A stretch of 54,149 bases of DNA, from NCBI GenBank assembly GCA_025362795.1, contig JANYFE010000033.1, forward strand, positions 1 to 54,149, written 5' to 3'. The position numbers were made by a program, and so were the translations under genes. Of the stretch, positions 22,157 through 38,873 are shown in pieces. Every line of letters starts with the position of its first letter. Within the stretch, counting starts at the first letter, position 1. The DNA comes from Rhodobacterales bacterium (GTDB taxonomy: Bacteria > Pseudomonadota > Alphaproteobacteria > Rhodobacterales > Rhodobacteraceae). The notes beneath the pieces are model-generated. The model ran no database searches and was not told the origin of the DNA. It saw only the letters and a program-made list of their open reading frames with translations.

Positions 22157-22172
22157 TTTACCATTTGATAAA
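22157..22172. promoter_or_regulatory. possible degenerate RutR-type operator
   Basis: TTTACCATTTGATAAA lies 52 bases upstream of the preT start, in the AT-rich part of the accB-preT gap. It matches 11 of the 14 fixed positions of the E. coli RutR consensus TTGACCA-N2-TGGTCAA and keeps dyad symmetry. It is weaker than the two sites before the large pyrimidine operon. Confidence 0.4.
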
Positions 22173-23601: not shown

Positions 23602-24900
23602 GTGGCAAACCTGACCTCTGCCTTCATCGGCATCAAATCCCCGAACCCGTTCTGGTTGGCTTCGGCCCCACCGACTGACAAGGAATACAATGTACGCCGC
23701 GCATATGAGGCAGGTTGGGGCGGAGTAGTCTGGAAAACGCTCGGGTCCGAAGGCCCGCCAGTCGTCAACGTCAACGGTCCCCGATATGGTGCCATCTGGG
23801 GGGCGGATCGGCGGCTCCTGGGCCTCAACAACATCGAACTGATCACCGACCGCCCCTTGGAGGTGAACCTGCGCGAGATCAAGATGGTCAAACGCGACTA
23901 CAAGGACCGTGCGCTGATCATTTCGTTGATGGTGCCGTGTGACGAGGAGTCTTGGCAGGACATCTTGGCGCGGTTGGAGGATACTGAAGCGGATGGGGTC
24001 GAATTGAACTTTGGCTGTCCGCACGGCATGGCGGAACGTGGCATGGGCTCGGCGGTCGGGCAGGTGCCGGAATACATTGAGATGGTGACCCGCTGGGTCA
24101 AAAAGCATTCCCGCATGCCCTGCATCGTGAAACTCACGCCCAATATCAGTGACATCCGCAAACCTGCTGCGGCGGCCAAAGCAGGTGGCGCGGATGCGGT
24201 CTCGCTGATCAACACAATCAATTCGATCACTGGGGTCGACCTCGACAATTTCGCGCCGTTGCCGACGATTGATGGCAAGGGCACACATGGCGGTTATTGC
24301 GGCCCTGCGGTTAAACCCATCGCGCTGAATATGGTAGCCGAGATTGCCCGCGACGCAGACACCCGTGGCCTGCCGATATCCGGCATTGGCGGGATTACCA
24401 CTTGGCGCGATGCGGCTGAGTTTTTGGCACTTGGTGCAGGCAATGTTCAGGTCTGCACGGCGGCGATGACGTACGGGTTCAAGGTCGTGCAAGAGATGAT
24501 TTCGGGGCTTTCGGACTATCTGGATGGCCACGACATGGGGCTGTCCGATCTGGTGGGCCGCGCGGTGCCAAATGTGACGGACTGGCAATTCCTGAACCTC
24601 AACTATGTCACCAAGGCGAAAATCGACCCTGATGCCTGCATCAAATGCGGCCGGTGTTATGCGGCCTGCGAGGATACATCGCATCAAGCAATTGCAATCA
24701 AGCCGGGCCGGGTATTCGAGGTGATGGACGACGAATGCGTCGCCTGCAATCTGTGTGTCGACGTGTGCCCGGTCGAGGATTGCATCACGATGGTCGAGAT
24801 GCCGCAGGGCGCCGTTGACCCCCGCACCGGGCGCACAGTGGGCGGCTATGCCAATTGGACGACCCATCCCAACAATCCTGGGGTGAAGGCGGCGGAGTAG
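23602..24900 (+). CDS. preA: dihydropyrimidine dehydrogenase subunit PreA (PydA)
   Basis: A 432-residue catalytic subunit that reduces the pyrimidine ring. The N-terminal FMN TIM barrel resembles dihydroorotate dehydrogenase (NPFWLASAPPT, ELNFGCPHGM with its active-site Cys region, KLTPNISDI, ISGIGGI). Two 4Fe-4S clusters are bound near the C-terminus by CIKCGRCYAAC and CVACNLCVDVCP. The start codon is GTG. It lies 94 bases after preT and completes the enzyme for step one of reductive pyrimidine degradation; steps two and three are encoded in the operon starting at 31286. Confidence 0.95.
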   Translation: MANLTSAFIGIKSPNPFWLASAPPTDKEYNVRRAYEAGWGGVVWKTLGSEGPPVVNVNGPRYGAIWGADRRLLGLNNIELITDRPLEVNLREIKMVKRDYKDRALIISLMVPCDEESWQDILARLEDTEADGVELNFGCPHGMAERGMGSAVGQVPEYIEMVTRWVKKHSRMPCIVKLTPNISDIRKPAAAAKAGGADAVSLINTINSITGVDLDNFAPLPTIDGKGTHGGYCGPAVKPIALNMVAEIARDADTRGLPISGIGGITTWRDAAEFLALGAGNVQVCTAAMTYGFKVVQEMISGLSDYLDGHDMGLSDLVGRAVPNVTDWQFLNLNYVTKAKIDPDACIKCGRCYAACEDTSHQAIAIKPGRVFEVMDDECVACNLCVDVCPVEDCITMVEMPQGAVDPRTGRTVGGYANWTTHPNNPGVKAAE

Positions 24901-25041: not shown

Positions 25042-26025
25042 ATGAAATACTCGCTCCTCGACCTTGCTCCCGTCGCTGAGGGCCAGACTGCGGCTGACGC
25101 CCTCGCCAACTCCCTTGATCTTGCCCGCCATGCCGAGGCTTGGGGTTATCATCGCTTCTGGCTGGCCGAGCATCACAACATGCCCGGCATTGCCTCGGCG
25201 GCCACTGCTGTGGTGATTGGACATGTCGCCGCGGGCACCAAGAACATCCGAGTTGGGGCCGGCGGCATCATGCTTCCCAACCATGCCCCGCTCATCATCG
25301 CCGAACAATTTGGCACCCTCGCCACGCTCTACCCAAACCGGATCGATCTGGGCCTTGGTCGTGCGCCCGGCACCGATATGACCACGGCGCGGGCCCTACG
25401 ACGACATATGGAAGCGTCCGACGAATTTCCAAGCGATGTCTTAGAGTTGCAGCGCTATCTTGATGTGCCCGATCCAGCCAACCGCATCCATGCTTTTCCG
25501 GGTGAAGGGACGCAAGTGCCGCTCTGGATCTTGGGGTCCAGCCTATATGGCGCACAATTGGCGGCCTATCTGGGGCTGCCCTATGCGTTTGCCAGCCATT
25601 TTGCACCCGCCCAATTGGAAGAAGCGGTGCACACCTATCGCACCACTTTCCGACCCTCAGCCAAGCGCGATGCCCCCTATTTCATGCTGGCCGCCGGCGT
25701 GTCCGCGGCGGATACCGACGCTCGGGCTGACTTTTTGCGCAGTTCGCAAGTCCTTGCCTTTGCCCGCCTGCGTGCCGGGCAACCCGGCAAACTGCCGCCA
25801 CCTCAAACAGACCTTTCAGAAGTGCCGTCGCAAATGCGGGCCGAAGTGGACTTTGCTTTGTCCTGCGCCGCCGTTGGCTCGCCGGCCACAGTCAAGGCCC
25901 AACTGGCCGCGTTGATTTCCCGGCACCAGCCCGACGAGGTCCTTCTGACTGGCATGATCTACGATCATCAGGCACGGTTGACATCATTCCAGATCGCGGC
26001 AGAGGCGATACGCGACCTTGGCTAA
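25042..26025 (+). CDS. luciferase-like (LLM class) flavin-dependent oxidoreductase
   Basis: A 327-residue bacterial-luciferase-fold protein of the single-subunit YhbW/MsnO8-type group. Signatures are [26 protein letters not shown], the FMN-contacting [20 protein letters not shown], and [12 protein letters not shown]. These enzymes oxidise varied substrates with reduced flavin. The neighbouring genes concern pyrimidine breakdown, but this member resembles the general group, not RutA, so a link is only positional. Substrate unknown. Confidence 0.88.
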
Positions 26026-26291
26026 ATCTAGCCCAGCCGCGGCGGGCGCCGTTACGACCGACTCGATTTACGGGCTACACCGGTAATGGTTCGGCTCGCC
26101 TGCAACCACGGACCGCCAGAATGGCCGACCTCATCGAGTAGAACGCGGTCGGGGCGCTTGCGCCGACCGGTCCCACGGCCGGCGAAGGTGTGGAAATTCG
26201 ACAAGTTCACTGTCGTTGAAGTCTTGATCCCCTGAATCAGTGTGAACAACCGGTTAACGAAAATTCCTAATACATTGAAATATAACAAAAA
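26026..26291. other. AT-rich gap with no convincing gene
   Basis: The convergent gap between the LLM oxidoreductase and kup. A minus-strand frame of 87 codons (26052-26315) starts inside the palindrome at the kup stop and has an Arg-rich end (TITGVARKSSRS), but no family or ribosome binding site. The part next to the palindrome is markedly AT-rich and resembles the flank of the second palindrome copy near 29083. Confidence 0.35.
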
Positions 26292-26321
26292 TAAGAAGTG
26301 TCCACATGTGGACACTTCTTA
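26292..26321 (-). terminator. 30-bp perfect palindrome at the kup stop, probable terminator
   Basis: A perfect 30-base inverted repeat with no interruption, centred between 26306 and 26307. It includes the kup stop codon and is followed on the minus strand by ATTTTTG, so it can act as a Rho-independent terminator. Its core GTGTCCACATGTGGACAC recurs exactly at 29065-29082, which is not explained by termination alone. Confidence 0.6.
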
Positions 26322-28256
26322 AATCGCCATCTGCTGCCCCATTTCGACCACCCGGTTAGATGGCAGACAATAGAACTGAGTGGCGTCGGCGGCGGATTTT
26401 GACAGGGCAATGAAAATCCGCTCTTGCCAGAACGGAAGACCTTGATGGCGCGCAGACCGGAAAGAGCGGCGGTTCAGGAAGAATGATGTCGTCATAATAT
26501 CGAACTTCTCGCCGCGCTTGCGGGCCAAAGACAAAGCCCGCGGCACGTTCGGGGTTTCCATGTAGCCAAAGTTCAGAATGACACGAAGGAAGTTTTCGGA
26601 AAGCCGCTCTAACGAAATCCGGTTGGCATCTGTCACGGTAGGCGTGGGGGCAACCGCAACGGTTACGATGAAATTCTGACTGTGCAGCACTCGGTTGTGC
26701 TTGAGGTTGTGCAGCAGAGCCGAAGGAGCAATGGACGGGTCTTGCGTCAGGAAAACTGCTGTTCCGGGCACTGCGATGGGCTGCGATTTGGTCAACATTG
26801 CGATCAGCTTGGTCAATGATATTGCCGAATCTGCCGCCTTCTGCTTGACATGCGCCGATCCGCGCACCCACGACCAGACCAGCAAACACATGGTCGACGC
26901 GATCAACGCCGGTACATAGCCGCCATCAATCAGCTTGGTTAGGTTGGCGCTAAGGAACATCAGTTCAACCGTCAAAATAGGTGCAATGACCGCGACCACC
27001 ACCGGCAGCGGCCATCTCCAAGCACGAGACAACAGCACAAAGGATAGGATCGAGGTGATCACCATATCGCCCGTCACCGCAATTCCGTAAGCCGAAGCGA
27101 GGCTTGTCGAAGAGCCGAACGCGACCACCAGACAGATCACCCCAGTCATCAAGATCATGTTGACCCGAGGCATGTAGATTTGGCCGTGCTGGGTTTCCGA
27201 GGTGTGCCGGATTTCCATCCGCGGCAAAAGCCCCATCTGCACCGCCTGCTGCATCATCGAGAAAGCCCCGGAGATTACCGCTTGGCTTGCGATAACGGTT
27301 GCTGCAGTAGCCAAGACGACCAACGGCAGCAGCGCCCATGTCGGCGCCATCAGAAAGAACGGGTCTACCGCCGCCTCGGGGTGGGTCAAGACAAACGCGC
27401 CTTGGCCGAGGTAGCTGAGCGCAAGCGACGGGAATACCAGAATGCCCCATGCAATGCGGATTGGGCGGCGCCCAAAATGGCCCATATCTGCATACAGGGC
27501 CTCGCCCCCGGTGACTGCCAAAAAGACCGAACCGAGCACGACGAACGAGCCAAAACCATGGTTTGTCAGAAAACGCAATGCATGCACCGGATTTAACGCC
27601 GCGAGAATCGCGGTGTCGTCCCCCAGATGCCGGAGGCCAAGGACGGCCATAACTATGAACCACAACACCATGATCGGACCGAACAGGATCGCAACTCGCT
27701 CGGTCCCTTGCGCTTGGAACAAGAAAAGACCCAAGATTATGGCCAGAGTTACCAGCACGACGTAGGGTTGAAAGCTTGGGGCGACAAGCGCCATGCCTTC
27801 CACCGCTGACAGTACTGACATGGCGGGGGTGATCATCGCATCGCCAAAGAAAAGTGAAATGCCGACAACACCGATCGCCAACAACCATCCTGGCCGTTTC
27901 TTCAGCGCCTGTTGTACCAGTGCTACCAGCGACAGAGTGCCACCTTCGCCCCGGTTGTCGGCCCGCATCACGAGCGCGACGTATTTCACCGTCACAATCA
28001 GAACAAGCGTCCACAAAAGAAGTGAGACAACGCCAATCACCTCTTCCGCCTGCAATCCGTCGCGGGAGGCGGCATGGAGCGATTCTCGCAATGCATAAAG
28101 CGGCGAGGTACCGATGTCTCCATAGACAACTCCAATACAACCGAGCACCAACTTCCACAGGTTCTGCGGGGGAGCGGGCGTAGGATGAGCATACGGAATT
28201 GCTGTGGTCTCGGCCAATGGCGTGGCCGTGTCGCCGGGGATGTTGTCTTCGTGCAT
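26319..28256 (-). CDS. kup: KUP family potassium uptake protein
   Basis: A 645-residue inner-membrane protein with about 12 transmembrane segments and a cytoplasmic C-terminal domain (about 480-645). Family signatures include CIGVVYGDIGTSPLYALRES near the start, FFGDAMITPAMSVLSAVEG, TGGEALYADMGHFGRRPIR, and ASQAVISGAFSMMQQAVQ. Kup proteins import K+ coupled to protons. Length is standard. It is followed by a terminator-like palindrome and lies 79 bases downstream of the rutR-like gene in the same direction, possibly co-transcribed. Confidence 0.95.
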   Translation of the reverse strand: MHEDNIPGDTATPLAETTAIPYAHPTPAPPQNLWKLVLGCIGVVYGDIGTSPLYALRESLHAASRDGLQAEEVIGVVSLLLWTLVLIVTVKYVALVMRADNRGEGGTLSLVALVQQALKKRPGWLLAIGVVGISLFFGDAMITPAMSVLSAVEGMALVAPSFQPYVVLVTLAIILGLFLFQAQGTERVAILFGPIMVLWFIVMAVLGLRHLGDDTAILAALNPVHALRFLTNHGFGSFVVLGSVFLAVTGGEALYADMGHFGRRPIRIAWGILVFPSLALSYLGQGAFVLTHPEAAVDPFFLMAPTWALLPLVVLATAATVIASQAVISGAFSMMQQAVQMGLLPRMEIRHTSETQHGQIYMPRVNMILMTGVICLVVAFGSSTSLASAYGIAVTGDMVITSILSFVLLSRAWRWPLPVVVAVIAPILTVELMFLSANLTKLIDGGYVPALIASTMCLLVWSWVRGSAHVKQKAADSAISLTKLIAMLTKSQPIAVPGTAVFLTQDPSIAPSALLHNLKHNRVLHSQNFIVTVAVAPTPTVTDANRISLERLSENFLRVILNFGYMETPNVPRALSLARKRGEKFDIMTTSFFLNRRSFRSARHQGLPFWQERIFIALSKSAADATQFYCLPSNRVVEMGQQMAI

Positions 28257-28335: not shown

Positions 28336-28944
28336 TCATGGCGGGGTCAGCAGGCGGCGGAACAAAAGATCGAGATATTCCCCGGCCTCCGCAAAGGGAT
28401 CATGAGTTTTGCCCAGAACCGCACGGACTTGGACGTCGAAATCGGCGTAGTGCTGTGTGAGCGCCCAAATCGAGAAGATCAGATGGACGGGGGGCATCTG
28501 CGCGATCCGACCCTCGGCCATCCAGCGGCGCAGGATCATAGATTTCTCTTCAACCAGCGTTTTCAGCGGCCCCTCAATCTCGGTCAGCATCCGCGGTGCG
28601 CCTTGCAGGATCTCGTTCGCAAACAGGCGGCTTTCGCGTGGGTAGTCTCGGGCCAGTTCGACTTTTCGATGGACATAGGCGAGAATTTCTTCGACCGGCT
28701 CGCCCTTGGGATTTATATGGCGCAGCGGGTCAAGCCAGGTTTGCATAAGCTGCGCCAAAAGGGCGAGGTAGACCGCATCTTTGGACGGAAAGTAATACAG
28801 CAGATTCGGCTTGGACAATCCCGCAACTTCAGCGATCTGGTCGAGGGTGGCTCCACGGAAGCCGTGTTGGGAAAACACGTCCAGCCCAGCCTCGAGGATG
28901 GCCTTAGAGTTGCGTTCCTGGATACGGGTGCGGGGTTTGAGCAC
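28336..28944 (-). CDS. rutR: TetR family regulator, RutR-like
   Basis: A 202-residue dimeric repressor. The N-terminal helix-turn-helix (FSQHGFRGATLDQIAEVAGLSKPNLLYYFPSKDAVY) matches RutR closely, and so does the C-terminal ligand domain (SRDYP-type LARDYPRESRLFANEIL, EEKSMILRRWM, HLIFSIWALTQHYADFDVQV). In E. coli RutR binds uracil and thymine and controls pyrimidine degradation. The start is GTG at 28944. Its likely targets are the RutR-type palindromes at 31054-31069 and 31220-31235 before the pyrimidine operon, and possibly 22157-22172 before preT. Confidence 0.88.
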   Translation of the reverse strand: MLKPRTRIQERNSKAILEAGLDVFSQHGFRGATLDQIAEVAGLSKPNLLYYFPSKDAVYLALLAQLMQTWLDPLRHINPKGEPVEEILAYVHRKVELARDYPRESRLFANEILQGAPRMLTEIEGPLKTLVEEKSMILRRWMAEGRIAQMPPVHLIFSIWALTQHYADFDVQVRAVLGKTHDPFAEAGEYLDLLFRRLLTPP

Positions 28945-29082: not shown

Positions 29083-29267
29083 TATAAAAAAGTTATATTT
29101 ATCAGTATCTTAACGTTTTTCATTAATGATTCGTTAGACAGGATTAGGTTAATTTGGATCGTATTGCAGACGCGATTGCCTTTCATGAAACGCCCAGCAT
29201 AAATTTGCTTGTCGTAAGAAGAGTAACACGTAGACTCTGGCTTTGTGACCCATCGAAAGCCATCCCA

Positions 29268-29564
29268 ATGCGCCCGACCTGCACAGCCGCCACGATGATC
29301 GACGATGACCGGGTGCGTGTGACCCGTTTTGATTTTGTGCCTGGAGCAGAGACTGGGTGGCACAAGCATGGCTATGACTATGTGATCACCGCCGTCAGCG
29401 ATTGCCCGATGCTGATTGAAGAGATGGGTGGCGGCGAGCGGCGGGTTTTGGTCGCAGCGGGAACAGCTTATCGTCGGCTAGAGGGGGTAGAACACAACGT
29501 CATTAACGCAGGTATCGTCCCGATGTGTTTTGTCGAGGTCGAACTAAAACAGAGCAGGGGTTGA
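29268..29564 (+). CDS. small cupin-domain protein
   Basis: A 98-residue single-domain cupin beta barrel. Motif 1 appears as PGAETGWHKHGYDYV, with two His for metal binding, and motif 2 as RLEGVEHNVINAG. The frame continues upstream to 29154, but that sequence is poorly conserved in character; the ATG at 29268 begins just before the domain. An AT-rich leader with the 18-base palindrome lies upstream. It could bind a small ligand or be an isomerase-type accessory enzyme; no specific role is evident. Confidence 0.7.
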   Translation: MRPTCTAATMIDDDRVRVTRFDFVPGAETGWHKHGYDYVITAVSDCPMLIEEMGGGERRVLVAAGTAYRRLEGVEHNVINAGIVPMCFVEVELKQSRG

Positions 29565-29579
29565 AAAGCTGCATTTCCT

Positions 29580-30104
29580 CTACTGCCGGATGAAGCGCAG
29601 TGTTGGCTCTGGTGTCGCCAGCAGAAGTTGCGCAAACAGGCCTTTGGCGGGGACCGTGCTGTCGCGCAAGGCGCAGGCATCATCCACGAAACGGACAATG
29701 GCATTGGTCTTCAGTGAAGTTTTCAACGCAGCACAATCCAGCGGGCTGACCAATAGTTCGGCTCCGTCCCAAGTGGCAATGGCATAATCTGCCTCGCCCC
29801 GAGCCTCTGCCTGCACTGCATAGTGATCGGCATCGATAGCGACGAATGCGTAAGTGTCGGCGGACGTCAGATCGTCGGGCCGTTCGGGATCTGGAACGAG
29901 GTAGTGGTTGCCATCAGGGATTGCGGTGATCTGCGGTTCGTCCGAGTCGACCCAAGTGCCGTTTTTGCGTTCAAAGACTGACAGCGTCAGTTTTTTGCTG
30001 CCCAGAAGCGGCGTGGCATCGGCATCATCAAAGATCGGTTTGGTCGCGTGCAAAACGCAGGCAGACAGTGCCAATGCTATGCCGCAGAGAAAAACTGATC
30101 GCAT
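29580..30104 (-). CDS. putative lipoprotein, unknown function
   Basis: A 174-residue protein with a lipoprotein signal: MRSVFLCGIALALSAC, where the lipobox LSAC gives the lipidated Cys at about 16. The mature part is acidic with several short beta-like segments (KKLTLSVFERKNGTWV, YAFVAIDADHYAVQAEARGE, YAIATWDGAELL) and two further cysteines (LDCAAL and DDACAL). The ATG at 30104 follows a GGAGG site; an upstream frame extension lacks one. It follows the UPF0303 gene in the same direction. No family is recognised. Confidence 0.7.
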   Translation of the reverse strand: MRSVFLCGIALALSACVLHATKPIFDDADATPLLGSKKLTLSVFERKNGTWVDSDEPQITAIPDGNHYLVPDPERPDDLTSADTYAFVAIDADHYAVQAEARGEADYAIATWDGAELLVSPLDCAALKTSLKTNAIVRFVDDACALRDSTVPAKGLFAQLLLATPEPTLRFIRQ

Positions 30105-30158
30105 GGGAGCCTCCAAAATTGCGGACAGGATGACAGCGGCACGCTCCGGGTGCAACAG

Positions 30159-30611
30159 TCAGGTCAACCGGGTCATAAGTTCCATGATCCCAGCGACCAC
30201 CAAGGCGTGGTCCTCTTGCTCAGGCAGGCCGGAAATCGTGGCAATGGCAACCATTCCGGTACCAGTGATACAGATCGGCACCGCGCCGCCGCTGAGGGCA
30301 TAATCGGCCTCGGTAAGGCCATCGGTCTGCAGAGTACGCTTCCGTTCGGCGTAGCGCAGCGTGACGTACATCGAGGCTGCGCCGTGCATCAGCGCAGTGT
30401 TCCCCTTGCGCCGCGCCCAGTTGTCATTGTTGGCCCGCGATCCGGGCAGGGCGGCATGAAAGAATGTGCGGTGCGCGTTGCGGATGTTGATGACCACCGG
30501 TTTGCCTTTGGCGAGTTCGAGCAAGATCAGGCCCAGTCGCAGGGCGGTCTCCTCGTCAAAGCGTGACAGGACCAGGCGGGTGGCTTCGGCTTCTAGCGAC
30601 TGGATGTCCAT
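30159..30611 (-). CDS. UPF0303 / HbpS-like (GlcG) heme-degrading-domain protein
   Basis: A 150-residue cytoplasmic protein of the UPF0303 group with the GlcG/HbpS fold. Characteristic parts are LSRFDEETALRLGLILLELA at the start, AHRTFFHAALPGSRANNDNWARRK in the middle, and SGGAVPICITGTGMVAIATISGLPEQEDHALVV at the end. HbpS binds heme; for UPF0303 members the ligand is not settled. The ATG at 30611 begins the family-typical MDIQSLEAEA; the longer frame is not needed. Confidence 0.8.
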   Translation of the reverse strand: MDIQSLEAEATRLVLSRFDEETALRLGLILLELAKGKPVVINIRNAHRTFFHAALPGSRANNDNWARRKGNTALMHGAASMYVTLRYAERKRTLQTDGLTEADYALSGGAVPICITGTGMVAIATISGLPEQEDHALVVAGIMELMTRLT

Positions 30612-30670
30612 TTGGTCCTGACGTTGATCATAGGGTTGGAAAATCGCCAATCGTTCATAAGGGGGGGGTG

Positions 30671-30800
30671 ATGGCAACGCGCATTGTGGTGGTGACACAG
30701 CAACTGTCGACTTTTGTCGATGGGATTGTCAATTCAGGCCGATTCCACAGTAGGTGAGGCGTCGCGGGTGGGGCTACGATGCTGGAGTGCAACGCGGCGG
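30671..30800 (+). pseudogene. broken ParD-type antitoxin
   Basis: A frame starting with ATG at 30671, after a run of G, reads MATRIVVVTQQLSTFVDGIV then NSGRFHS, which fits the N-terminal ribbon-helix-helix of CC2985-type ParD antitoxins (the usual pattern is R-x-VVLT then LV-x-SGRY). After this it hits a stop. The continuation expected in such proteins, S-E-V-R-GLR, is found in the next frame (VGEASRVGLR), then LE in the first frame again. So the antitoxin carries frameshifts. No intact ParE toxin follows. Confidence 0.45.
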
Positions 30801-31053
30801 TCTGGACAAAGCCAAGGCCGGGGAACGGTGGGGAGGGCGCAATCGGTGCTGCGCCCAACGTTCGGCAAGGTTGTCAGACGAAATCCCATGTTGGACGCTG
30901 GGACAATTCGTTCGTGCACAGATGGTTAACTAGGCAAACGATCTTGCAAGTCGCTGTCCTGAAGTCGCGTGTCTAAACTCAGAGTCAAAAGTGTTGTGCA
31001 CGACACTGCGATTTAAGTCTGCGTGGTTGCCTAGTAGGAGAGCAGGTGGACGT

Positions 31054-31069
31054 CTGACCGTCTGGTCAC
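31054..31069. promoter_or_regulatory. RutR-type operator, distal site
   Basis: Contains TGACCG-TC-TGGTCA, one mismatch from the TGACCA-N2-TGGTCA core of the RutR consensus. It lies 217 bases upstream of the beta-ureidopropionase start and 166 bases upstream of the stronger proximal site. Confidence 0.6.
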
Positions 31070-31219
31070 ATCGGCGATTCGCTCCTCACAGGTTTTGGTC
31101 TTTGATTTGCCGCTTGATTTCAAGGCATCTTAGCGTTCGAGGCATTGGCGGCACGGGCCCCTTGGTTTTTGCCCGGCAGATTCAAGTTGACCGCGGGGTG
31201 TGGGGCTGTAGCCTTTCGT

Positions 31220-31235
31220 TTGACCATATGGTCAG
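31220..31235. promoter_or_regulatory. RutR-type operator, proximal site
   Basis: TTGACCATATGGTCAG matches 15 of 16 positions of a perfect RutR palindrome (TTGACCA-N2-TGGTCAA). It lies 51 bases before the start codon of the first gene of the pyrimidine degradation operon, a position suited to repression, with uracil or thymine as the expected inducer. Confidence 0.8.
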
Positions 31236-31285
31236 GAAACGAGTCGCGGCAAGGGGCTACAAGACCCTAAGCCTGGGAGGTTTGC

Positions 31286-32530
31286 ATGGCTGTTGGCGAG
31301 AATATCCGCATCAATCCGGCTCGGCTATGGGATTCGCTGATGGCGATGGCCCAGATCGGGCCGGGGATTGCCGGGGGGAATAACCGCCAGACCTTGACCG
31401 ATGCGGATGGCGAGGGGCGGCATCTGTTTGCGCGGTGGTGTGACGCGGCGGGCCTGACGATGGGCGTCGATACAATGGGGAACATGTTTGCGACCAGGGC
31501 GGGGACCGAGGATCTGGCCCCGGTCTATATGGGCTCGCATCTGGATACCCAGCCGACGGGGGGGAAATATGACGGCGTGCTGGGGGTTCTGGGCGCGCTG
31601 GAGGTGGTGCGGACGATGAACGACCTCGGGATCAGGACGCGGCATCCGATCGTGGTGACGAACTGGACCAACGAGGAAGGGGCGCGGTTTGCGCCGGCGA
31701 TGCTGGCGTCGGGGGTGTTCGCGGGGATTCACACCGAGGATTATGCCAAGGCGCGTCTGGACCCGGAGGGCTTGCGGTTTGGCGACGAACTGGCGCGGAT
31801 CGGCTGGGTCGGGGACGAGGTGGTGGGGGCGCGGAAAATCCACGCGATGTTTGAGTTGCACATCGAGCAGGGTCCGATCCTTGAGGCAGAGGGGCGTGAG
31901 ATTGGCGTTGTGACCCACGGGCAGGGGCTGTGGTGGCTGGAGATCACGCTGACGGGCAAGGACGCGCATACCGGGTCAACCCCGATGGCCATGCGGGTCA
32001 ATGCGGGGCTGGGCATGGCGCGGATCACCGAGCGGGTGCATCAGATAGCCATGTCGCATCAGCCCGGTGCGGTGGGGGCGGTGGGGCAGGTCAAGGTTTT
32101 TCCCAATTCGCGCAATGTGATACCGGGTCGGGTGGTGTTCACGGTCGATATCCGCTCCCCCGAACAGGGCAAGCTGGACCTCATGCGCGGCGAGGTGGAG
32201 CGGGCGGCGCATGCGGTGGCGGCGGAGTTGGGGCTGGGGTGTTCTATCGAGCCGGTCGGGCATTTTGATCCGGTGACGTTTGATCCGGGGCTGGTGGGGG
32301 TGGTGCGGTCTGCGGCGGAACGGTTGGGCTATTCGCATATGGATATCGTGTCAGGTGCCGGGCATGATGCCTGCTGGATCAACCGGGTGGCACCCACGGT
32401 GATGGTGATGTGCCCGTGTGTTGGGGGCCTGAGCCACAACGAGGCCGAGGAGATTTCCCCGGAATGGGCGGCGGCAGGGACGGATGTGCTGCTGCACGCG
32501 GTGCTGGAAGTGGCGGGGGTGGTGGGGTGA
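31286..32530 (+). CDS. pydC: beta-ureidopropionase / N-carbamoyl amino acid hydrolase (M20 type)
   Basis: A 414-residue zinc-dependent amidohydrolase of the HyuC/AllC group. Here it should hydrolyse N-carbamoyl-beta-alanine to beta-alanine, CO2 and ammonia, the last step of reductive pyrimidine breakdown. Metal ligands are visible in YMGSHLDTQPTGG and KYDGVLGVLGA, NWTNEEGARFAP, FELHIEQGP and SGAGHDACWI. A GGAGG site at 31277-31281 supports the ATG. It is the first gene of the operon, behind two RutR-type sites. Hydantoin- or allantoate-type substrates are alternatives excluded mainly by context. Confidence 0.9.
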   Translation: MAVGENIRINPARLWDSLMAMAQIGPGIAGGNNRQTLTDADGEGRHLFARWCDAAGLTMGVDTMGNMFATRAGTEDLAPVYMGSHLDTQPTGGKYDGVLGVLGALEVVRTMNDLGIRTRHPIVVTNWTNEEGARFAPAMLASGVFAGIHTEDYAKARLDPEGLRFGDELARIGWVGDEVVGARKIHAMFELHIEQGPILEAEGREIGVVTHGQGLWWLEITLTGKDAHTGSTPMAMRVNAGLGMARITERVHQIAMSHQPGAVGAVGQVKVFPNSRNVIPGRVVFTVDIRSPEQGKLDLMRGEVERAAHAVAAELGLGCSIEPVGHFDPVTFDPGLVGVVRSAAERLGYSHMDIVSGAGHDACWINRVAPTVMVMCPCVGGLSHNEAEEISPEWAAAGTDVLLHAVLEVAGVVG

Positions 32531-32610: not shown

Positions 32611-32862
32611 ATGATCGTCGGCGGGAAAATGGTCCCGGAGGACATGCTATATGAGAAGTTCTCTCTGGGATATGAAGCGCATGGTGGCAATGAGCCGCGA
32701 AGCATTTGCAGAGCATTGCGTTGCGTGGCCCGCGACTGGACGGAGGGGCGAGACAAATTCGTCGAATGCGCCAGACGCCATGGCCTCAATCCCGAAAACG
32801 CACGGATAGAGTGGTACAATGGGCGAAAGAGCCCAAAGGACACAGGGGAAAAGTCGATATGA
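32611..32862 (+). CDS. small hypothetical protein coupled to dihydropyrimidinase
   Basis: An 83-residue soluble protein (MIVGGKMVPEDMLYEKFSLG at the start; basic and aromatic later, with FVECARRHGLNPENARIEWY). It has three Cys and no signal or membrane segment. A GGAGAGGGG tract lies upstream of the ATG at 32611; a GTG one codon earlier is also possible. The stop overlaps the start of dihydropyrimidinase as ATGA, the same coupling seen at other joints of this operon, which argues that it is real. No family is recognised. It could be a regulator or accessory factor of the pathway. Confidence 0.65.
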   Translation: MIVGGKMVPEDMLYEKFSLGYEAHGGNEPRSICRALRCVARDWTEGRDKFVECARRHGLNPENARIEWYNGRKSPKDTGEKSI

Positions 32863-34310
32863 CCACCATCATCAAGAACGGAACCATCGTCACCGCCGAC
32901 CTGACCTACAAGGCTGATGTCCGCATCGAAGGCGGTATCATCACCGAGATGGGTCCGAACCTGTCTGGCGGCAGCGAACTTGACGCCACGGGCTGCTATG
33001 TCATGCCCGGCGGGATTGATCCGCATACGCATCTGGAGATGCCCTTCATGGGCACCTATTCGGCGGATGACTTCGAATCCGGGACGCGGGCGGCGCTGTC
33101 GGGTGGCACCACGATGCTCGTCGATTTCGTGCTGCCGGGGCAGGGGCAGGGGCTGATGGATGCGGCGCAGATGTGGCACAACAAGTCGGGGCGGGCGTCC
33201 TGCGACTATAGTTATCACATGGCGATCACCTGGTGGGGGCAGAAGGTTTGGGAGGATATGGAGGCTTCGGTCAAGGCCGGCATGACCAGCTTCAAGCATT
33301 TCATGGCCTACAAGGGCGCGTTGATGGTCAACGACGATGAAATGTATCAATCTTTCAAACGGGTTGGCGACCTGGGTGGCGTGGCGCTGGTCCATGCCGA
33401 GAATGGCGATGTCGTAGCGGAACTGACAGCGAAGCTGCTGGCAGAGGGCAATACCGGGCCGGAGGCGCATGCCTACAGCCGCCCGCCGCAGGTCGAGGGC
33501 GAGGCGACCAACCGGGCGATCATGATTGCCGACATGGCGGGGGTGCCGCTCTATGTGGTGCATACGTCCTGTGAGGAGGCGCATGAGGCGATAAGACGGG
33601 CGCGGATGCAGGGCAAACGGGTGTGGGGCGAGCCGCTGATCCAGCATCTGACGCTGGACGAAAGTGAGTATCAGCATCCCGACTGGGACCATGCAGCGCG
33701 GCGCGTAATGTCGCCGCCGTTCCGGGCCAAGGTTCATCAGGAGAGCCTGTGGGCGGGGTTGCAATCGGGGTCGCTGTCCTGTGTGGCGACGGATCATTGT
33801 GCCTTCACAACCGCGCAGAAGCGGTTCGGATTGAACGATTTTTCCAAGATCCCGAATGGCACGGGGGGCTTGGAGGACCGGATGCCGATGCTGTGGACGC
33901 ATGGGGTGGAAACCGGGCGGCTGACGATGAACGAGTTTGTCGCGGTCACATCAACAAACATCGCCAAGATATTGAATTGCTATCCGAAAAAGGGCGCGGT
34001 GCTGGTCGGGGCGGATGCCGATCTGGTGGTTCTGGACCCTGCGAAGGAAAAGACCATTCAGGCGACGACCCAGCAGTCGAAGATCGACTACAACGTGTTC
34101 GAGGGTAAGCGCGTCAAGGGATTGCCGCGCTTTACGCTGACACGGGGCCATCTGGCGATTGACGACGGCATCGTGAAAACGCGGGAAGGGCATGGGCAGT
34201 TCGTGGCGAGGGAGGCGCGGCCGGCGGTCAACCGGGCGTTGTCGGCGTGGAAAGAGTTGACCGCGCCGCGTCCGGTCATGCGGACGGGCATTCCGGCAAC
34301 GGGGGTTTGA
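32859..34310 (+). CDS. hydA: dihydropyrimidinase
   Basis: A 483-residue metal-dependent amidohydrolase that opens dihydrouracil to N-carbamoyl-beta-alanine. The binuclear site is seen in GGIDPHTHLEMPFMG, the carbamylated Lys in FKHFMAYKGAL (about 150), metal His in YVVHTSCEEAH, and the final Asp in CVATDHCAFTTAQK. Length and the end region are standard. Start at 32859 is set by the ATGA overlap with the small upstream gene; the long upstream extension runs through that gene in another frame. Also called PydB. Confidence 0.95.
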   Translation: MTTIIKNGTIVTADLTYKADVRIEGGIITEMGPNLSGGSELDATGCYVMPGGIDPHTHLEMPFMGTYSADDFESGTRAALSGGTTMLVDFVLPGQGQGLMDAAQMWHNKSGRASCDYSYHMAITWWGQKVWEDMEASVKAGMTSFKHFMAYKGALMVNDDEMYQSFKRVGDLGGVALVHAENGDVVAELTAKLLAEGNTGPEAHAYSRPPQVEGEATNRAIMIADMAGVPLYVVHTSCEEAHEAIRRARMQGKRVWGEPLIQHLTLDESEYQHPDWDHAARRVMSPPFRAKVHQESLWAGLQSGSLSCVATDHCAFTTAQKRFGLNDFSKIPNGTGGLEDRMPMLWTHGVETGRLTMNEFVAVTSTNIAKILNCYPKKGAVLVGADADLVVLDPAKEKTIQATTQQSKIDYNVFEGKRVKGLPRFTLTRGHLAIDDGIVKTREGHGQFVAREARPAVNRALSAWKELTAPRPVMRTGIPATGV

Positions 34311-34744
34311 TGGAGAACTGGCTGAAAAAGTCGGCGCTGGACAAACGGTTTGTCGACTTGGCTTGCGTCATGAGCCTGCTAGTCTGGATTTGGCTGGCGA
34401 TGACCCTTTTTGTGCTGCCCTTCATTTTCTGGAAGTTAGTCGTTCTATGTCAAGCGCTTGCGCTGCCGTTCGCGATACTGGGCTGGGCGGCAGGCTTCCG
34501 CGTGGGGCGCCGTATGGGGTTTCGGCCGCGCTGGGCGGCGCTGGTCGCGGGATGGTCGGGGTTGATGTCGGCCGAACTTGGGCTGGCTTTGGTGCTGATG
34601 CCGTGGCTTGGCTCAGGGGGGCTGATGCCGGGGATCTGGGCGTTTCCGGCACTTGCCGTTCTGGTAACTGTCGGAGTTATTTGGCTTTATCGGCCGAAGC
34701 CTTGGCCTGGAATTCTAGCGAATTTGGACGGGACGGGAGCATGA
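34310..34744 (+). CDS. small integral membrane protein in pyrimidine operon
   Basis: A 144-residue protein with four probable transmembrane segments (about 18-40, 40-60, 75-100 and 105-125). Its start overlaps the hydA stop (TGATG) and its stop overlaps the ABC ATPase start (ATGA). This tight coupling implies a role with the importer or the pathway. No family is recognised. It is too short and differently arranged to be one of the two canonical permeases, both of which are encoded further on. Confidence 0.75.
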   Translation: MENWLKKSALDKRFVDLACVMSLLVWIWLAMTLFVLPFIFWKLVVLCQALALPFAILGWAAGFRVGRRMGFRPRWAALVAGWSGLMSAELGLALVLMPWLGSGGLMPGIWAFPALAVLVTVGVIWLYRPKPWPGILANLDGTGA

Positions 34745-35538
34745 AGGATACCATTGGCCTTTCCGGTCCCATCATCGAGGCGCGCGGGGTCAATCTGGTT
34801 TTTGAGACTTCTGACGGGCCGGTGCAGGCTTTGAAGGATGTTTCACTGTCGGTATCCAAGGGGGAGTTTGTTTCGTTTATTGGGCCAAGTGGTTGTGGGA
34901 AAACGACTTTTCTGCGGGCGATTGCAGCTTTGGAGACGCCGACTTCGGGCGTTCTGGCCGTTAACGGGATGGGGGCGGAGGAGGCGCGGAAAAGCCGGGC
35001 TTATGGCTATGTCTTTCAGGCGGCGGGGCTGTATCCGTGGCGGACGATTGCGGGGAATGTGTCGTTACCGCTTGAAATCATGGGATTTTCCAAGGCGGAG
35101 CAGGCAGCCCGTGTGGAGCGGGTGCTGGAGCTGGTGGAGTTGAAGGGATTTGGGCGGAAGTTTCCGTGGCAGTTGTCTGGCGGCATGCAGCAGCGGGCGT
35201 CGATTGCGCGGGCGTTGGCGTTTGATGCGGACATTTTGCTGATGGACGAGCCCTTTGGCGCACTGGATGAGATCGTGCGGGACAGGCTGAATGAAGAAGT
35301 GCTAAGGCTCTGGAATCGCACGGGAAAAACGATCTGTTTTGTGACTCATTCGATACCGGAGGCGGTGTATTTGTCGACCAAGATCGTGGTTATGAGCCCG
35401 CGTCCGGGGCGGATTACCGATGTGATTGACAGTCCGCTGCCGCGGGAGCGCCCCCTGGATATTCGCGACAGCCGGGAATTTATCGAAATTGCGCACCGGG
35501 TGCGGGAAGGGCTGCGGGCGGGGCATGCGGATGCGTAA
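34741..35538 (+). CDS. ABC transporter ATP-binding protein (predicted pyrimidine importer)
   Basis: A 265-residue ATPase of the SsuB/TauB/ThiZ type. Walker A GPSGCGKTT (about 45-53), Q-loop FQAAGLYPWRTIAGN, signature LSGGMQQRASIARAL, Walker B ILLMDEPFGALD and switch His in FVTHSIPEAVYLS are intact. With the two permeases and NMT1/THI5-type binding protein that follow, it forms an importer of the kind often annotated as a pyrimidine or hydroxymethylpyrimidine transporter. The operon context favours uracil, thymine or a dihydropyrimidine as cargo. Confidence 0.9.
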   Translation: MKDTIGLSGPIIEARGVNLVFETSDGPVQALKDVSLSVSKGEFVSFIGPSGCGKTTFLRAIAALETPTSGVLAVNGMGAEEARKSRAYGYVFQAAGLYPWRTIAGNVSLPLEIMGFSKAEQAARVERVLELVELKGFGRKFPWQLSGGMQQRASIARALAFDADILLMDEPFGALDEIVRDRLNEEVLRLWNRTGKTICFVTHSIPEAVYLSTKIVVMSPRPGRITDVIDSPLPRERPLDIRDSREFIEIAHRVREGLRAGHADA

Positions 35539-35714
35539 AATAGTGGTCTTGAACGCGTCTTGCTTGCGTCTTCTTTGCGTGAAGACAGGACAGCGGATAT
35601 GACCGCGATGGTTTTTCGGGACCAAGGGGCAGCGCCCCACCCCAACCTTCCCCTTGACGGGAAAGGAGTGGCCCCTTGGCTGGCGTCGGTCGCGGCTGGC
35701 GCAGAGGTGGCGAC

Positions 35715-36050
35715 ATGAACGCGGTGGTGCTGGCGTATCTGGTGGGATCGACGGTGGTGTTCATGGCGGCGAATGCGACATTGAAGACCTATGCGGCGAG
35801 CGGCGGGACGTGGGTTCTGGCGGGTGCGCTGGCGCTGTTCTGCGTCGGCAACTTTCTGATGGTGCGGGTGATGCGGGAGAACGGGCTGGGGCTGGCGATC
35901 GCATTGTCGCTGATCTTTCAGCTGATCGCGATCACGGCGATGGCGATGGTGGTGTTTGGCGAGCGGCCAAGCGGGTTGCAGGTGGCGGGGCTGGTGCTGG
36001 GGGTGGTTGCGGTGACGATGATCATTTGGCCGCAGGGCGGGGCGACGTGA
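35715..36050 (+). CDS. small four-TM transporter, SMR/EamA-like
   Basis: A 111-residue membrane protein with four hydrophobic helices, similar in pattern to small multidrug resistance or single-unit EamA proteins (start NAVVLAYLVGSTVVFMAANA; VVFGERPSGLQVAGLVLGVV near the end, where ERP-type sequence is typical). Members usually act as dimers. An AGAGGTGG site precedes the ATG at 35715. It lies inside the importer gene set, between ATPase and first permease, with gaps of 176 and 93 bases, so it may have been inserted later. It might export a pathway product. Confidence 0.7.
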   Translation: MNAVVLAYLVGSTVVFMAANATLKTYAASGGTWVLAGALALFCVGNFLMVRVMRENGLGLAIALSLIFQLIAITAMAMVVFGERPSGLQVAGLVLGVVAVTMIIWPQGGAT

Positions 36051-36080
36051 TGAGGCGTTGCCCTTGGCTGGCGTTGGAGT

Positions 36081-36129
36081 GGGGGTTTCACACCCCCACA
36101 CCCCGGTGGGATATTTATGGACGGATGAA
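36081..36129 (+). repeat. interspersed hairpin repeat, copy 2
   Basis: A GGGGGT-TTCAC-ACCCCC hairpin, then a C-rich spacer, GGGATATTTATGG and ACGGATGAA. It lies between the small transporter gene and the first permease gene, with the permease start only 15 bases further. It may influence expression of the downstream gene. Confidence 0.7.
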
Positions 36130-36143
36130 TTGGGGTAGGGCAG

Positions 36144-37007
36144 GTGCGTAGCTTCTTTCCTATTTTGGCGGTTTTGGCGGTGATTATAGCACTGTGGTAT
36201 GCCGGGTCGGTCTGGCTTAACGCCCAGTGGGTTTATGATCAGGCGGGGCGGGCGGGGGAGACGGTTTCGTTTTCGCAGGTGGTGCCGCGGACGATGAATC
36301 AGGATCGCCCGGTATTACCGACACCGCATCAGGTGTTTTGGGAATTGGGCAAGTCGACATTGGGAATGGCGCCGAGTTCTAAAAAGTCGCTGATCTATCA
36401 TGGTTGGGTGACGATTTCGGCGACGCTGCTCGGGTTTGCGATTGGCACGGCATTCGGGATTTTGCTGGCGGTCGGGATCATTCACAATCGGGCGATGGAT
36501 TTGTCGGTGATGCCCTGGGCGATTGCCAGTCAGACGATTCCGATTCTGGCGATTGCCCCGATGATCATTGTCGTGCTGTCCTCGGTGGGGGTGCAGGGGT
36601 TGGTGCCGAAGTCGATCATCTCGGCATTCCTGAGTTTCTTTCCGGTGCTGGTGGGGATGGTGAAAGGCTTGCGCAGCCCGGATCAGATGCAGCTGGATTT
36701 GCTGGCGACCTATAATGCGAGCAGAGGCCAAGCTTTGTGGAAGCTGCGCCTGCCTTCGTCGATGCCCTATCTGTTCGCCTCGCTGAAGGTGGGCATTGCG
36801 GCCTCGCTGGTCGGCGCGATTGTGGGCGAGATGCCGACCGGGGCGGTCGCGGGCCTCGGCGCGCGGCTGTTGTCGGGGAGTTATTACGGCCAGACTGTGC
36901 AGATCTGGGCCGCGCTGTTCGCGGCGGCGATTGCGGCGGCGGGGCTGGTGATGATCGTGGGCGGGGTGGAGCGGGTCACGTTGCGGCGGATGGGGATGGC
37001 GCGATGA
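36144..37007 (+). CDS. ABC transporter permease 1 (predicted pyrimidine importer)
   Basis: A 287-residue inner-membrane permease with an N-terminal segment (about 5-25), a periplasmic stretch and five further helices. The EAA-type coupling loop is LLATYNASRGQALWKLRLPSS followed by MPYLF (about 190-215). The start is GTG at 36144 with a GGGTAGGG-like site. Its stop overlaps permease 2 as ATGA. The longer N-terminal loop (about 30-75) is typical of the first permease in this transporter type. Confidence 0.88.
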   Translation: MRSFFPILAVLAVIIALWYAGSVWLNAQWVYDQAGRAGETVSFSQVVPRTMNQDRPVLPTPHQVFWELGKSTLGMAPSSKKSLIYHGWVTISATLLGFAIGTAFGILLAVGIIHNRAMDLSVMPWAIASQTIPILAIAPMIIVVLSSVGVQGLVPKSIISAFLSFFPVLVGMVKGLRSPDQMQLDLLATYNASRGQALWKLRLPSSMPYLFASLKVGIAASLVGAIVGEMPTGAVAGLGARLLSGSYYGQTVQIWAALFAAAIAAAGLVMIVGGVERVTLRRMGMAR

Positions 37008-37855
37008 TCTGGCTGGTGGCCGCACTGGTGGTTTGGGTCGGGGCCTGGGGCGTGAACGTCTGGCTGTCGCATTCGGTGCTGGTCCGGACGCGGCTTGGGC
37101 GGTTGCTGGTTCCGGCGATTTTCGGGCTGACCGTGCTGTTTGTCTGGGAGGCGGTGGTGCGCGGCGCGCAGGTGCCGGGGGTGATTTTGCCTGCGCCGTC
37201 GGCGATCTGGGAAAAAATTGCCAGCAGTCTGCCGATGTTGTGGGCTGATTTCGCGCAGACTTTCGTGAAGGGCGCGCTGCGGGGGTATTTGATCGGCTGT
37301 GGCTCGGCTGTGCTGGTGGCGATTGCGATTGACCGGTCAGTCTTCTTGCAACGGGGCCTGCTGCCGATTGGCAATTTCGTCGCGGCCTTGCCGGTGGTGG
37401 GGATCGCCCCGATTCTGGTGATGTGGTTCGGCTTTGACTGGCAGTCGAAGGCGGCGGTCGTGGTGGTGATGGTGTTCTTTCCGGTCTTGGTGAACACGGT
37501 GGCGGGGTTGGCGGCGTCAGAGCGGATGCAGCGCGACCTGATGGCGACCTGGGGGGCGAGTTACTGGCAGACGCTGTTCAAGCTGCGCCTGCCTGCCGCG
37601 ATGCCGTTCCTCTTTAACGGCTTGAAGATTGCGACGACGCTGGCAATGATCGGAGCGATTGTTGCCGAGTTTTTCGGCAGTCCGATCGTGGGGATGGGCT
37701 TTCGCATCTCGACCGAGGTGGGCAAGCTGGACCTTGACATGGTCTGGGCCGAGATTGCGGTGGCGGCGCTGGCCGGATCGGCGTTTTATGGCGGGGTGGC
37801 GGCGCTGGAGCATTGGGTGACGTTCTGGCACCCTTCGCAACGAACGAGACGTTAA
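37004..37855 (+). CDS. ABC transporter permease 2 (predicted pyrimidine importer)
   Basis: A 283-residue inner-membrane permease with six or seven helices. The coupling loop MATWGASYWQTLFKLRLPAA followed by MPFLFNGLK (about 190-220) pairs with that of permease 1, so the transporter is a heterodimer. The ATG at 37004 overlaps the previous stop (ATGA). A long open frame upstream lies in a shadow frame of permease 1 and was not used. Confidence 0.9.
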   Translation: MIWLVAALVVWVGAWGVNVWLSHSVLVRTRLGRLLVPAIFGLTVLFVWEAVVRGAQVPGVILPAPSAIWEKIASSLPMLWADFAQTFVKGALRGYLIGCGSAVLVAIAIDRSVFLQRGLLPIGNFVAALPVVGIAPILVMWFGFDWQSKAAVVVVMVFFPVLVNTVAGLAASERMQRDLMATWGASYWQTLFKLRLPAAMPFLFNGLKIATTLAMIGAIVAEFFGSPIVGMGFRISTEVGKLDLDMVWAEIAVAALAGSAFYGGVAALEHWVTFWHPSQRTRR

Positions 37856-37880
37856 GAAACAACAACAAGGAGGATGCAAG

Positions 37881-38873
37881 ATGAAGAAACTACTGACGGG
37901 CGCTTTTGTGGCGGGCATGCTGGCCACCGGCGCACAGGCGGCGGATGATGTGACGCTGCAACTGAAATGGGTCACGCAGGCGCAGTTTGCGGGCTATTAC
38001 GTGGCGCTGGCCAAGGGGTTTTACACCGACGAGGGCCTGAATGTCACGATCAAGCCCGGCGGGCCGGATATTGCGCCCGAGCAGGTGATCGCCGGGGGCG
38101 GGGCGGATGTGATCGTCGACTGGATGCCGGCGGCGCTGGCGGCGCGGGAGAAGGGCTTGCCGCTGGTCAACATCGCCCAGCCGTTCAAGCATGGCGGGCT
38201 GGAGCTGACCTGTCTCAAGGAAAGCGGCGTGGCGACGCCGGCTGATTTCAAGGGCAAGACACTGGGCGTCTGGTTTTACGGAAATGAATATCCGTTCTAT
38301 GGCTGGATGGCGAAGCTGGGCCTGTCGACCGAGGGCGGGGCGGATGGTGTCACGGTTCTGAAACAGGCGTTCAACGTCGATCCGCTGCTGCAAAAGCAGG
38401 CGGCGTGCATTTCGGTGATGACCTATAACGAATATGGTCAGGTGCTGGATGCCGGGATCAAGCCGGAAGATCTGGTGACGTTCAACTATCTGGATCAGGG
38501 CGCGGGCGTCATGGAGGACGGGTTGTACGCGCTGCAGGACAAGCTGGCTGATCCGGCGTTTGCCGACAAGATGGTCAAGTTTGTGCGCGCGTCGATGAAG
38601 GGCTGGAAATATGCCGAGGCCAATGTGGATGAGGCGGCGCAGATCGTGATCGACAATGATGCGTCAGGCGCGCAGACGCTGGAGCATCAGAAATACATGA
38701 TGAGCGAAGTGGCCAAGCTGACGGCCGGATCGAACGGGGCGCTGGACCCGGCCGATTACAAACAGACAGTGGACACGCTGCTGGCGGCGGTGTCGAAGGA
38801 AAACCCGGCGATCACCAAGGCACCGGACGACGGGGCCTTTACCACGGCGATCACCGACAAGGCGCTGCAATAA
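37881..38873 (+). CDS. NMT1/THI5-type ABC substrate-binding protein
   Basis: A 330-residue periplasmic binding protein with signal peptide MKKLLTGAFVAGMLATGAQA and cleavage before ADD. The NMT1/THI5 fold starts VTLQLKWVTQAQFAGYYVAL, followed by GFYTDEGLNVTIKPGGP and WMPAALAAREKGLPLVNIAQ. Relatives bind thiamine-pyrimidine precursors, riboflavin or other small heterocycles. Placement at the end of a dihydropyrimidinase operon supports a pyrimidine ligand. A strong AAGGAGGATG site precedes the start, suited to high expression. A terminator follows. Confidence 0.92.
   Translation: MKKLLTGAFVAGMLATGAQAADDVTLQLKWVTQAQFAGYYVALAKGFYTDEGLNVTIKPGGPDIAPEQVIAGGGADVIVDWMPAALAAREKGLPLVNIAQPFKHGGLELTCLKESGVATPADFKGKTLGVWFYGNEYPFYGWMAKLGLSTEGGADGVTVLKQAFNVDPLLQKQAACISVMTYNEYGQVLDAGIKPEDLVTFNYLDQGAGVMEDGLYALQDKLADPAFADKMVKFVRASMKGWKYAEANVDEAAQIVIDNDASGAQTLEHQKYMMSEVAKLTAGSNGALDPADYKQTVDTLLAAVSKENPAITKAPDDGAFTTAITDKALQ

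Follow-up and report, generated by a model that had tools for sequence, protein, structure and literature searches.

RutR-type operator-like sites and a second, decayed RutR-like gene at the reductive pyrimidine pathway genes of a Rhodobacterales bacterium

The window, that is, the whole 54,149-nucleotide stretch of DNA analysed here, carries genes assigned to the reductive pathway of pyrimidine degradation, a RutR-like regulator gene designated p1, operator-like sites upstream of preT and of pydC, and what remains of a second RutR-like gene, designated p2. The features are the following.

22157-22172, plus strand: operator-like site TTTACC-ATTT-GATAAA before preT (TTKACC-N4-GRTMAA in 36 of 41 preT upstream regions from the best 80 loci)
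22224-23507, plus strand: preT-like gene, dihydropyrimidine dehydrogenase of the flavoprotein subunit type (PF14691 and PF07992)
23602-24900, plus strand: preA, NAD-dependent dihydropyrimidine dehydrogenase subunit PreA (NF006183, 700.6 bits, cut-off 335)
28336-28944, minus strand: p1, RutR-like TetR regulator (PF08362, 157.7 bits; best solved match E. coli RutR)
30983-31083, minus strand: relic of p2, helix-turn-helix part (nhmmer profile of 37 p2 genes, 21.2 bits)
31054-31069, no strand: palindrome of the original prediction, inside the p2 relic (alignment with p2 coding sequence)
31187-31202, plus strand: predicted distal operator whose right arm has decayed, TTGACCGCGGGGTGTG (position homologous to the distal site of 11 same-genus loci)
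31209-31214, plus strand: proposed -10 box TAGCCT, 16 bases after TTGACC (weak consensus)
31220-31235, no strand: predicted proximal operator TTGACC-ATAT-GGTCAG before pydC (genome-unique at one mismatch or fewer; conserved)
31286-32530, plus strand: pydC-type amidase, hydantoinase/carbamoylase family Zn-dependent hydrolase (NF006769, 666.9 bits, cut-off 452; TIGR01879, 374, cut-off 204)
32706-34310, plus strand: pydB, dihydropyrimidinase (TIGR02033, 591.6 bits, cut-off 393.25)
34363-38873, plus strand: ABC transporter genes for an ATPase, two permeases and an NMT1-like binding protein (domain/family matches)

The preT-like gene reached no NCBIfam cut-off among the best 25 of 59 families, and the true start of pydB is probably later than annotated, the family match beginning at residue 55. 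The original prediction had assigned the targets to the reductive pathway, and this assignment is borne out by the PreT/PreA-like, PydC-type amidase and dihydropyrimidinase genes nearby and by the lack of RutA: no match to RutA was found in the window's genome, and none of 41 genomes scored over the cut-off, leaving no rut operon as a target of p1. Between preA and p1, at 25042-28256, lie a luciferase-like monooxygenase gene (MsnO8 family) and a Kup-type potassium transporter gene, in an order kept in several relatives; a cupin-like ORF, scoring under the Pfam cut-off, and a gene of HbpS-like type (PF03928) occupy 29154-30698, in the interval that separates the positions of the two regulators, and are likewise found in several relatives.

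The RutR-like gene predicted at 28336-28944 is confirmed. Its product, the sole TetR_C_3 (PF08362) protein found in the window's genome, combines a TetR_N domain (52.5 bits) with a YcdC-like C-terminal domain (PF08362), both over cut-off. The recognition helix of p1 reads SKPNLLYYF against SKTNLLYYF in E. coli RutR, and the C-terminal motif TQHYADF is common to the two proteins. Both RutR equivalog models score p1 below their cut-offs (TIGR03613, 238.2 bits vs 368; NF011584, 213.3 vs 230). In a regulator tree of 50 rows thinned from 128, a branch supported at 100/100 separates p1 and two reference RutR rows from p2; p1 by itself forms a single group with support of only 63/27.

The palindrome predicted at 31220-31235, TTGACCATATGGTCAG, whose 3' end lies 50 bp upstream of the pydC start codon, proved to be real: it is the single match to TTGACCATATGGTCAA at one mismatch or fewer in the 3.84-Mb genome, and its core, TGACC-N4-GGTCA, recurs before pydC in relatives. 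The RutR operator consensus is TTGACCANNTGGTCAA, and the site, standing before a predicted target with one mismatch to TTGACCATATGGTCAA, is close to it. The exact core occurs nine times genome-wide vs ten times for a reversed control pattern, so that a single such palindrome is not above chance and, the shorter core not being rare, function must be argued from conservation. Judged by sequence comparison, the locus is special in that two of the nine genome cores lie within 180 bp of each other and, above all, in its conservation in relatives. The other seven perfect cores lie outside this region, most inside ORFs; all seven are outside the window, six of them inside mechanical ORFs of at least 100 aa. 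The seventh, C30:76421, in the gap between a class-V aminotransferase gene and a phosphatase-like gene, was considered as a regulon member and rejected as chance: at its homologous loci in same-genus genomes no core at one mismatch or fewer was present in 13 of 17, and in the remaining four (L227, L230, L231, L238) the cores lie inside the aminotransferase ORF and not in the homologous place. The pattern TTKACCRNNYGRTMAR has nine matches in the window's own genome vs two for its control, and, among the matches listed, one more of them (C18), in addition to 22157 and 31220, is identical letter for letter in G007.

Conservation before pydC was counted in the best 80 pydC loci from one species-level genome collection, of which three with less than 170 bp before pydC were left out. 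The core at one mismatch or fewer precedes pydC in 67 of the 77 counted loci, and 76 of the 87 exact cores in 1.575 Mb of DNA lie no more than 700 bp before pydC. The expectation that both of the originally predicted sites would be conserved before pydC homologues holds for the 31220-type core in these 67 loci and fails for 31054, which has no equivalent in relatives lacking p2. As to whether palindromes are missing before pydC in regulator-bearing relatives, 30 of the 33 p1-adjacent loci among the best 80 have one site (10 perfect, 20 with one mismatch), three (L055, L075, L077) have none, and two sites were found in none, an outcome that favors the original prediction.

A different arrangement is seen where p2 is the neighbor. 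This gene, 35-38% identical to p1 in same-genus genomes, is divergent from pydC in 32 loci of this set, and 30 of these have two operator sites (both perfect in 28), spaced at 33-34 bp in 29 pairs and at 30 bp in one. The other two, L034 and L036, have p2 adjacent yet a single site, so that a site can be lost while p2 persists. In the Stappiaceae loci L048, L067 and L081, p2 lies away from pydC, and a 33-bp pair is found before p2 and none before pydC; in these loci (Roseibium, Pannonibacter) p1 and p2 are near one another, both away from pydC. In Mesorhizobium, one p2-bearing locus has the operator pair, and two loci without p2 show no site before pydC. The p2-bearing locus (L047, compared with L057 and L058) has p2 and twin operators beside pydC as in Rhodobacteraceae, and its p1 groups with Mesorhizobium; the p2-pydC unit has perhaps moved between lineages in this case. 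Because the loci are related and not independent, Fisher values overstate the evidence and are rough only.

Intact sites are also found in genomes where p2 was not. The genomes of L026, L028, L029 and L031 have p1, and each locus keeps one intact pydC site; that of L017 yielded neither p1 nor p2 at E<=1e-20 and keeps an intact proximal operator-like site before pydC, although this assembly may be incomplete. The genomes of L053 and L076 show neither regulator and have no site at pydC or preT.

The window's genome belongs with those in which p2 was not found. Matches to p2 are present in 14 of 15 same-genus genomes, the exception, G014, being 75% complete and having no match to p1 better than E 1.6e-9, and p2 was not found in the window's genome, which is listed as 100% complete. 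At 31083-30983, in the position and on the strand of p2 in relatives, a stretch of roughly 100 bp matches an nhmmer profile of p2 genes with E 7.7e-7 over the window, and the best score in 1000 dinucleotide shuffles of the spacer was 1.7 bits, against 21.2 for the relic. The profile drew on 37 of 45 genes, eight having been dropped by identity or length, and includes at least one duplicate pair (L008, L149). Protein queries with p2 gave weak matches at the relic (best there E 0.16), as expected of a frame-broken relic. By this comparison the window's species has lost p2, the decayed gene having left the relic.

In the 11 same-genus loci with upstream DNA, the distal operator lies 33-34 or 30 bp from the proximal site, and the homologous place in the window is 31187-31202, where the left arm TTGACC (31187-31192) is intact and the right arm has decayed. 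The distal sites of L031 and L017 have decayed likewise, with TTGACC kept. The second member of the predicted operator pair is thus placed at 31187-31202, rather than at 31054-31069.

The retained left arm probably reflects a role as the -35 box of pydC. In p2-adjacent loci among the best 80, a T....T hexamer lies 16-18 bases downstream of the first site's TTGACC in 30 of 32 cases; the corresponding count in p1-adjacent loci, at a spacing of 15-18, is 5 of 30, about chance level. The window reads TTGACC-16-TAGCCT (31187-31192, 31209-31214), and in the Paracoccus loci L055 and L075 the palindrome is lost and TTGACA-16-TAGCCT or TAGCGT kept. The single site kept in L026, L028 and L029 resembles the distal operator by its place before a -10-like hexamer. 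These patterns suggest that the distal operator's left arm serves as the -35 box of pydC, that transcription would start within the proximal operator, close to 31220, and that operator spacing is set by the promoter.

A weaker match at 22157-22172, TTTACCATTTGATAAA, had been proposed to extend the regulon to preT. The core TGACC-N4-GGTCA at one mismatch or fewer was found in none of 49 preT upstream regions, about 0.5 being expected from shuffles, and the proposal stands in another form, a 6-4-6 site. When the window is aligned with 11 relatives, TTTACC-R-TTTGATAAAAA is nearly invariant before preT. The pattern TTKACC-N4-GRTMAA, written after viewing this 12-sequence alignment, occurs within 300 bp before preT in 36 of 41 loci of the best 80, the other 39 having no usable preT start or too little upstream DNA; neither of two control patterns gave a match. 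Of the five misses, two (L053, L076) belong to the genomes in which neither regulator was found, and the other three (L028, L045, L062) have p1. In nine further stretches, chosen for holding such a site, the site is before preT in all nine. Since the preT site is present whether or not a locus has p2, it is more likely read by p1. The preT and pydC genes are about 115 kb apart in G001 and on different contigs in G010; contig breaks between the two genes elsewhere do not prove distance. In L247 (G016), two preT-type operators, TTGACCAAATGATAAA and TTTACCGTTTGATAAA, lie 17 bp apart before preT (1292-1324).

We consider it likely, with a probability of roughly 0.75, that p1 represses preT-preA at 22157-22172 and the pydC-pydB-transporter operon at 31220-31235, that p2 was lost and the distal operator decayed, and that the 31054 palindrome most likely arose by chance. 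By analogy with the RutR family, a p1 dimer would bind the 6-4-6 operators TTTACC-ATTT-GATAAA before preT-preA and TTGACC-ATAT-GGTCAG at pydC, the latter covering the predicted start of the pydC-pydB-transporter operon, and a pyrimidine or dihydropyrimidine would release it from both. In close relatives, p2 lies divergent from pydC, and the promoter region between them usually has two predicted operators 33-34 bp apart; here p2 has decayed, and the distal operator is left without its right arm and with the TTGACC left arm retained.

The pydC operator pair of close relatives tracks p2, so that p1 need not read the pydC site, and a pair accompanies p2 also where p2 is away from pydC. The pydC operator could then be an orphan, formerly read by p2 only and now decaying, with p1 controlling preT-preA alone, and one of the window's two sites has indeed already decayed. 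We regard this as unlikely, though not negligible, because the proximal site still has its perfect core in the window and in L031 and L017, where p2 was not found, because a similar pydC site accompanies p1 as the sole adjacent regulator in 30 of 33 loci, and because p1 and p2 have the recognition-helix core K52, N54, L55, Y57, Y58 and F59 in common.

The palindrome at 31054-31069, CTGACCGTCTGGTCAC, had been taken for a second operator with one mismatch. It does contain a perfect TGACC-N4-GGTCA core, but it differs from 31220-31235 at 4 of 16 positions, not at one, and was not recovered at up to three mismatches to TTGACCATATGGTCAA. A perfect core is expected in the spacer only 0.0005 times from base composition or 0.0011 times from the genome rate, low values that would favor 31054 and 31220 as two working operators of a RutR-like protein, for instance joined by a 166-bp DNA loop; the site was, however, noticed after the fact and sits in coding-derived sequence. 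It lies within the decayed p2 gene, where, in the alignment, p2 of relatives encodes the recognition helix, and none of the p2-less loci L017, L026, L028, L029 and L031 shows a second site at one mismatch or fewer in the 420 bp preceding pydC. Chance cores exist elsewhere in this genome, as the seven outside the region attest. Joint operation of the two sites is therefore very unlikely, and a second operator at 31054 is not supported, the match having probably arisen by chance inside the p2 relic. We give as little credence to the idea that, after loss of p2 and decay of the distal site, the palindrome was selected from p2's own recognition-helix codons as a replacement upstream operator for p1. 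Binding of the palindromes by an unrelated regulator, conserved with the cluster by happenstance, is less likely still: the assignment to p1 does come from sequence comparison and L017 keeps a site although no RutR-like protein was detected in its genome, but the sites go with the p1 and p2 genes and are of RutR type, and the genomes of L053 and L076, without either RutR-like gene, have no pydC or preT site.

The proposed control by p1 resembles two known systems. In Pseudomonas putida, the RutR-like regulator PydR reportedly represses the reductive-pathway gene for dihydropyrimidine dehydrogenase (Hidese et al. 2012, J. Biochem. 152:341-346; as cited in PMC7332683), and here too a RutR-like gene is linked to dihydropyrimidine dehydrogenase genes with operator-like sites before them. 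The comparison with PydR covers its reported role. Since RutR-like control of the reductive pathway has thus already been reported for PydR, the headline is not new. E. coli RutR, whose structure has been solved with uracil (4JYK, PMC10891134), is like p1 a TetR_C_3 protein, with an almost identical recognition helix, a ~16-bp palindromic operator and a role in pyrimidine use (PDB 3loc, 4jyk, 4xk4; PMC10891134). According to the latter source it acts on the rut operon and carAB, whereas here RutA is lacking and the likely targets belong to the reductive pathway.

A comparative-genomics study of 68 genomes from 13 proteobacterial taxa (Leyn et al. 2016, PMC5343134) reconstructed RutR regulons for pyrimidine catabolism, and the present case resembles them as a pyrimidine catabolism regulon with taxon-specific motif changes. 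The main text of that study is without 'pyd', and its searched passages name no second paralogue or operator pair, which its tables or supplements may list; the RutR passage of PMC4344238 belongs to an E. coli table. Ten alphaproteobacterial rutA stretches (nine with RutA over the cut-off, one below) contained neither TGACC-N4-GGTCA nor TTKACC-N4-GRTMAA, and only one of them, L202, holds a RutR-like gene, 55% identical to E. coli RutR. These stretches were compared with regard to the original suggestion that one operator may have been kept while the regulated pathway differs. The literature searched, which did not extend to the RegPrecise tables and most subscription papers, yielded no account of a two-regulator arrangement with twin operators or of its decay; we do not claim that it is absent from print.

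The reductive pyrimidine pathway of these Rhodobacteraceae thus appears as a small, clear and probably two-operon regulon of the RutR type. The 31054 palindrome carries the warning that even a perfect palindromic site close to a promoter can be a fossil of coding sequence. The window's species and a few other lineages, each without one of the paralogous repressors and each with one intact operator-like site, offer a natural experiment that lets one test how operators become separated from promoters once a regulator is lost.
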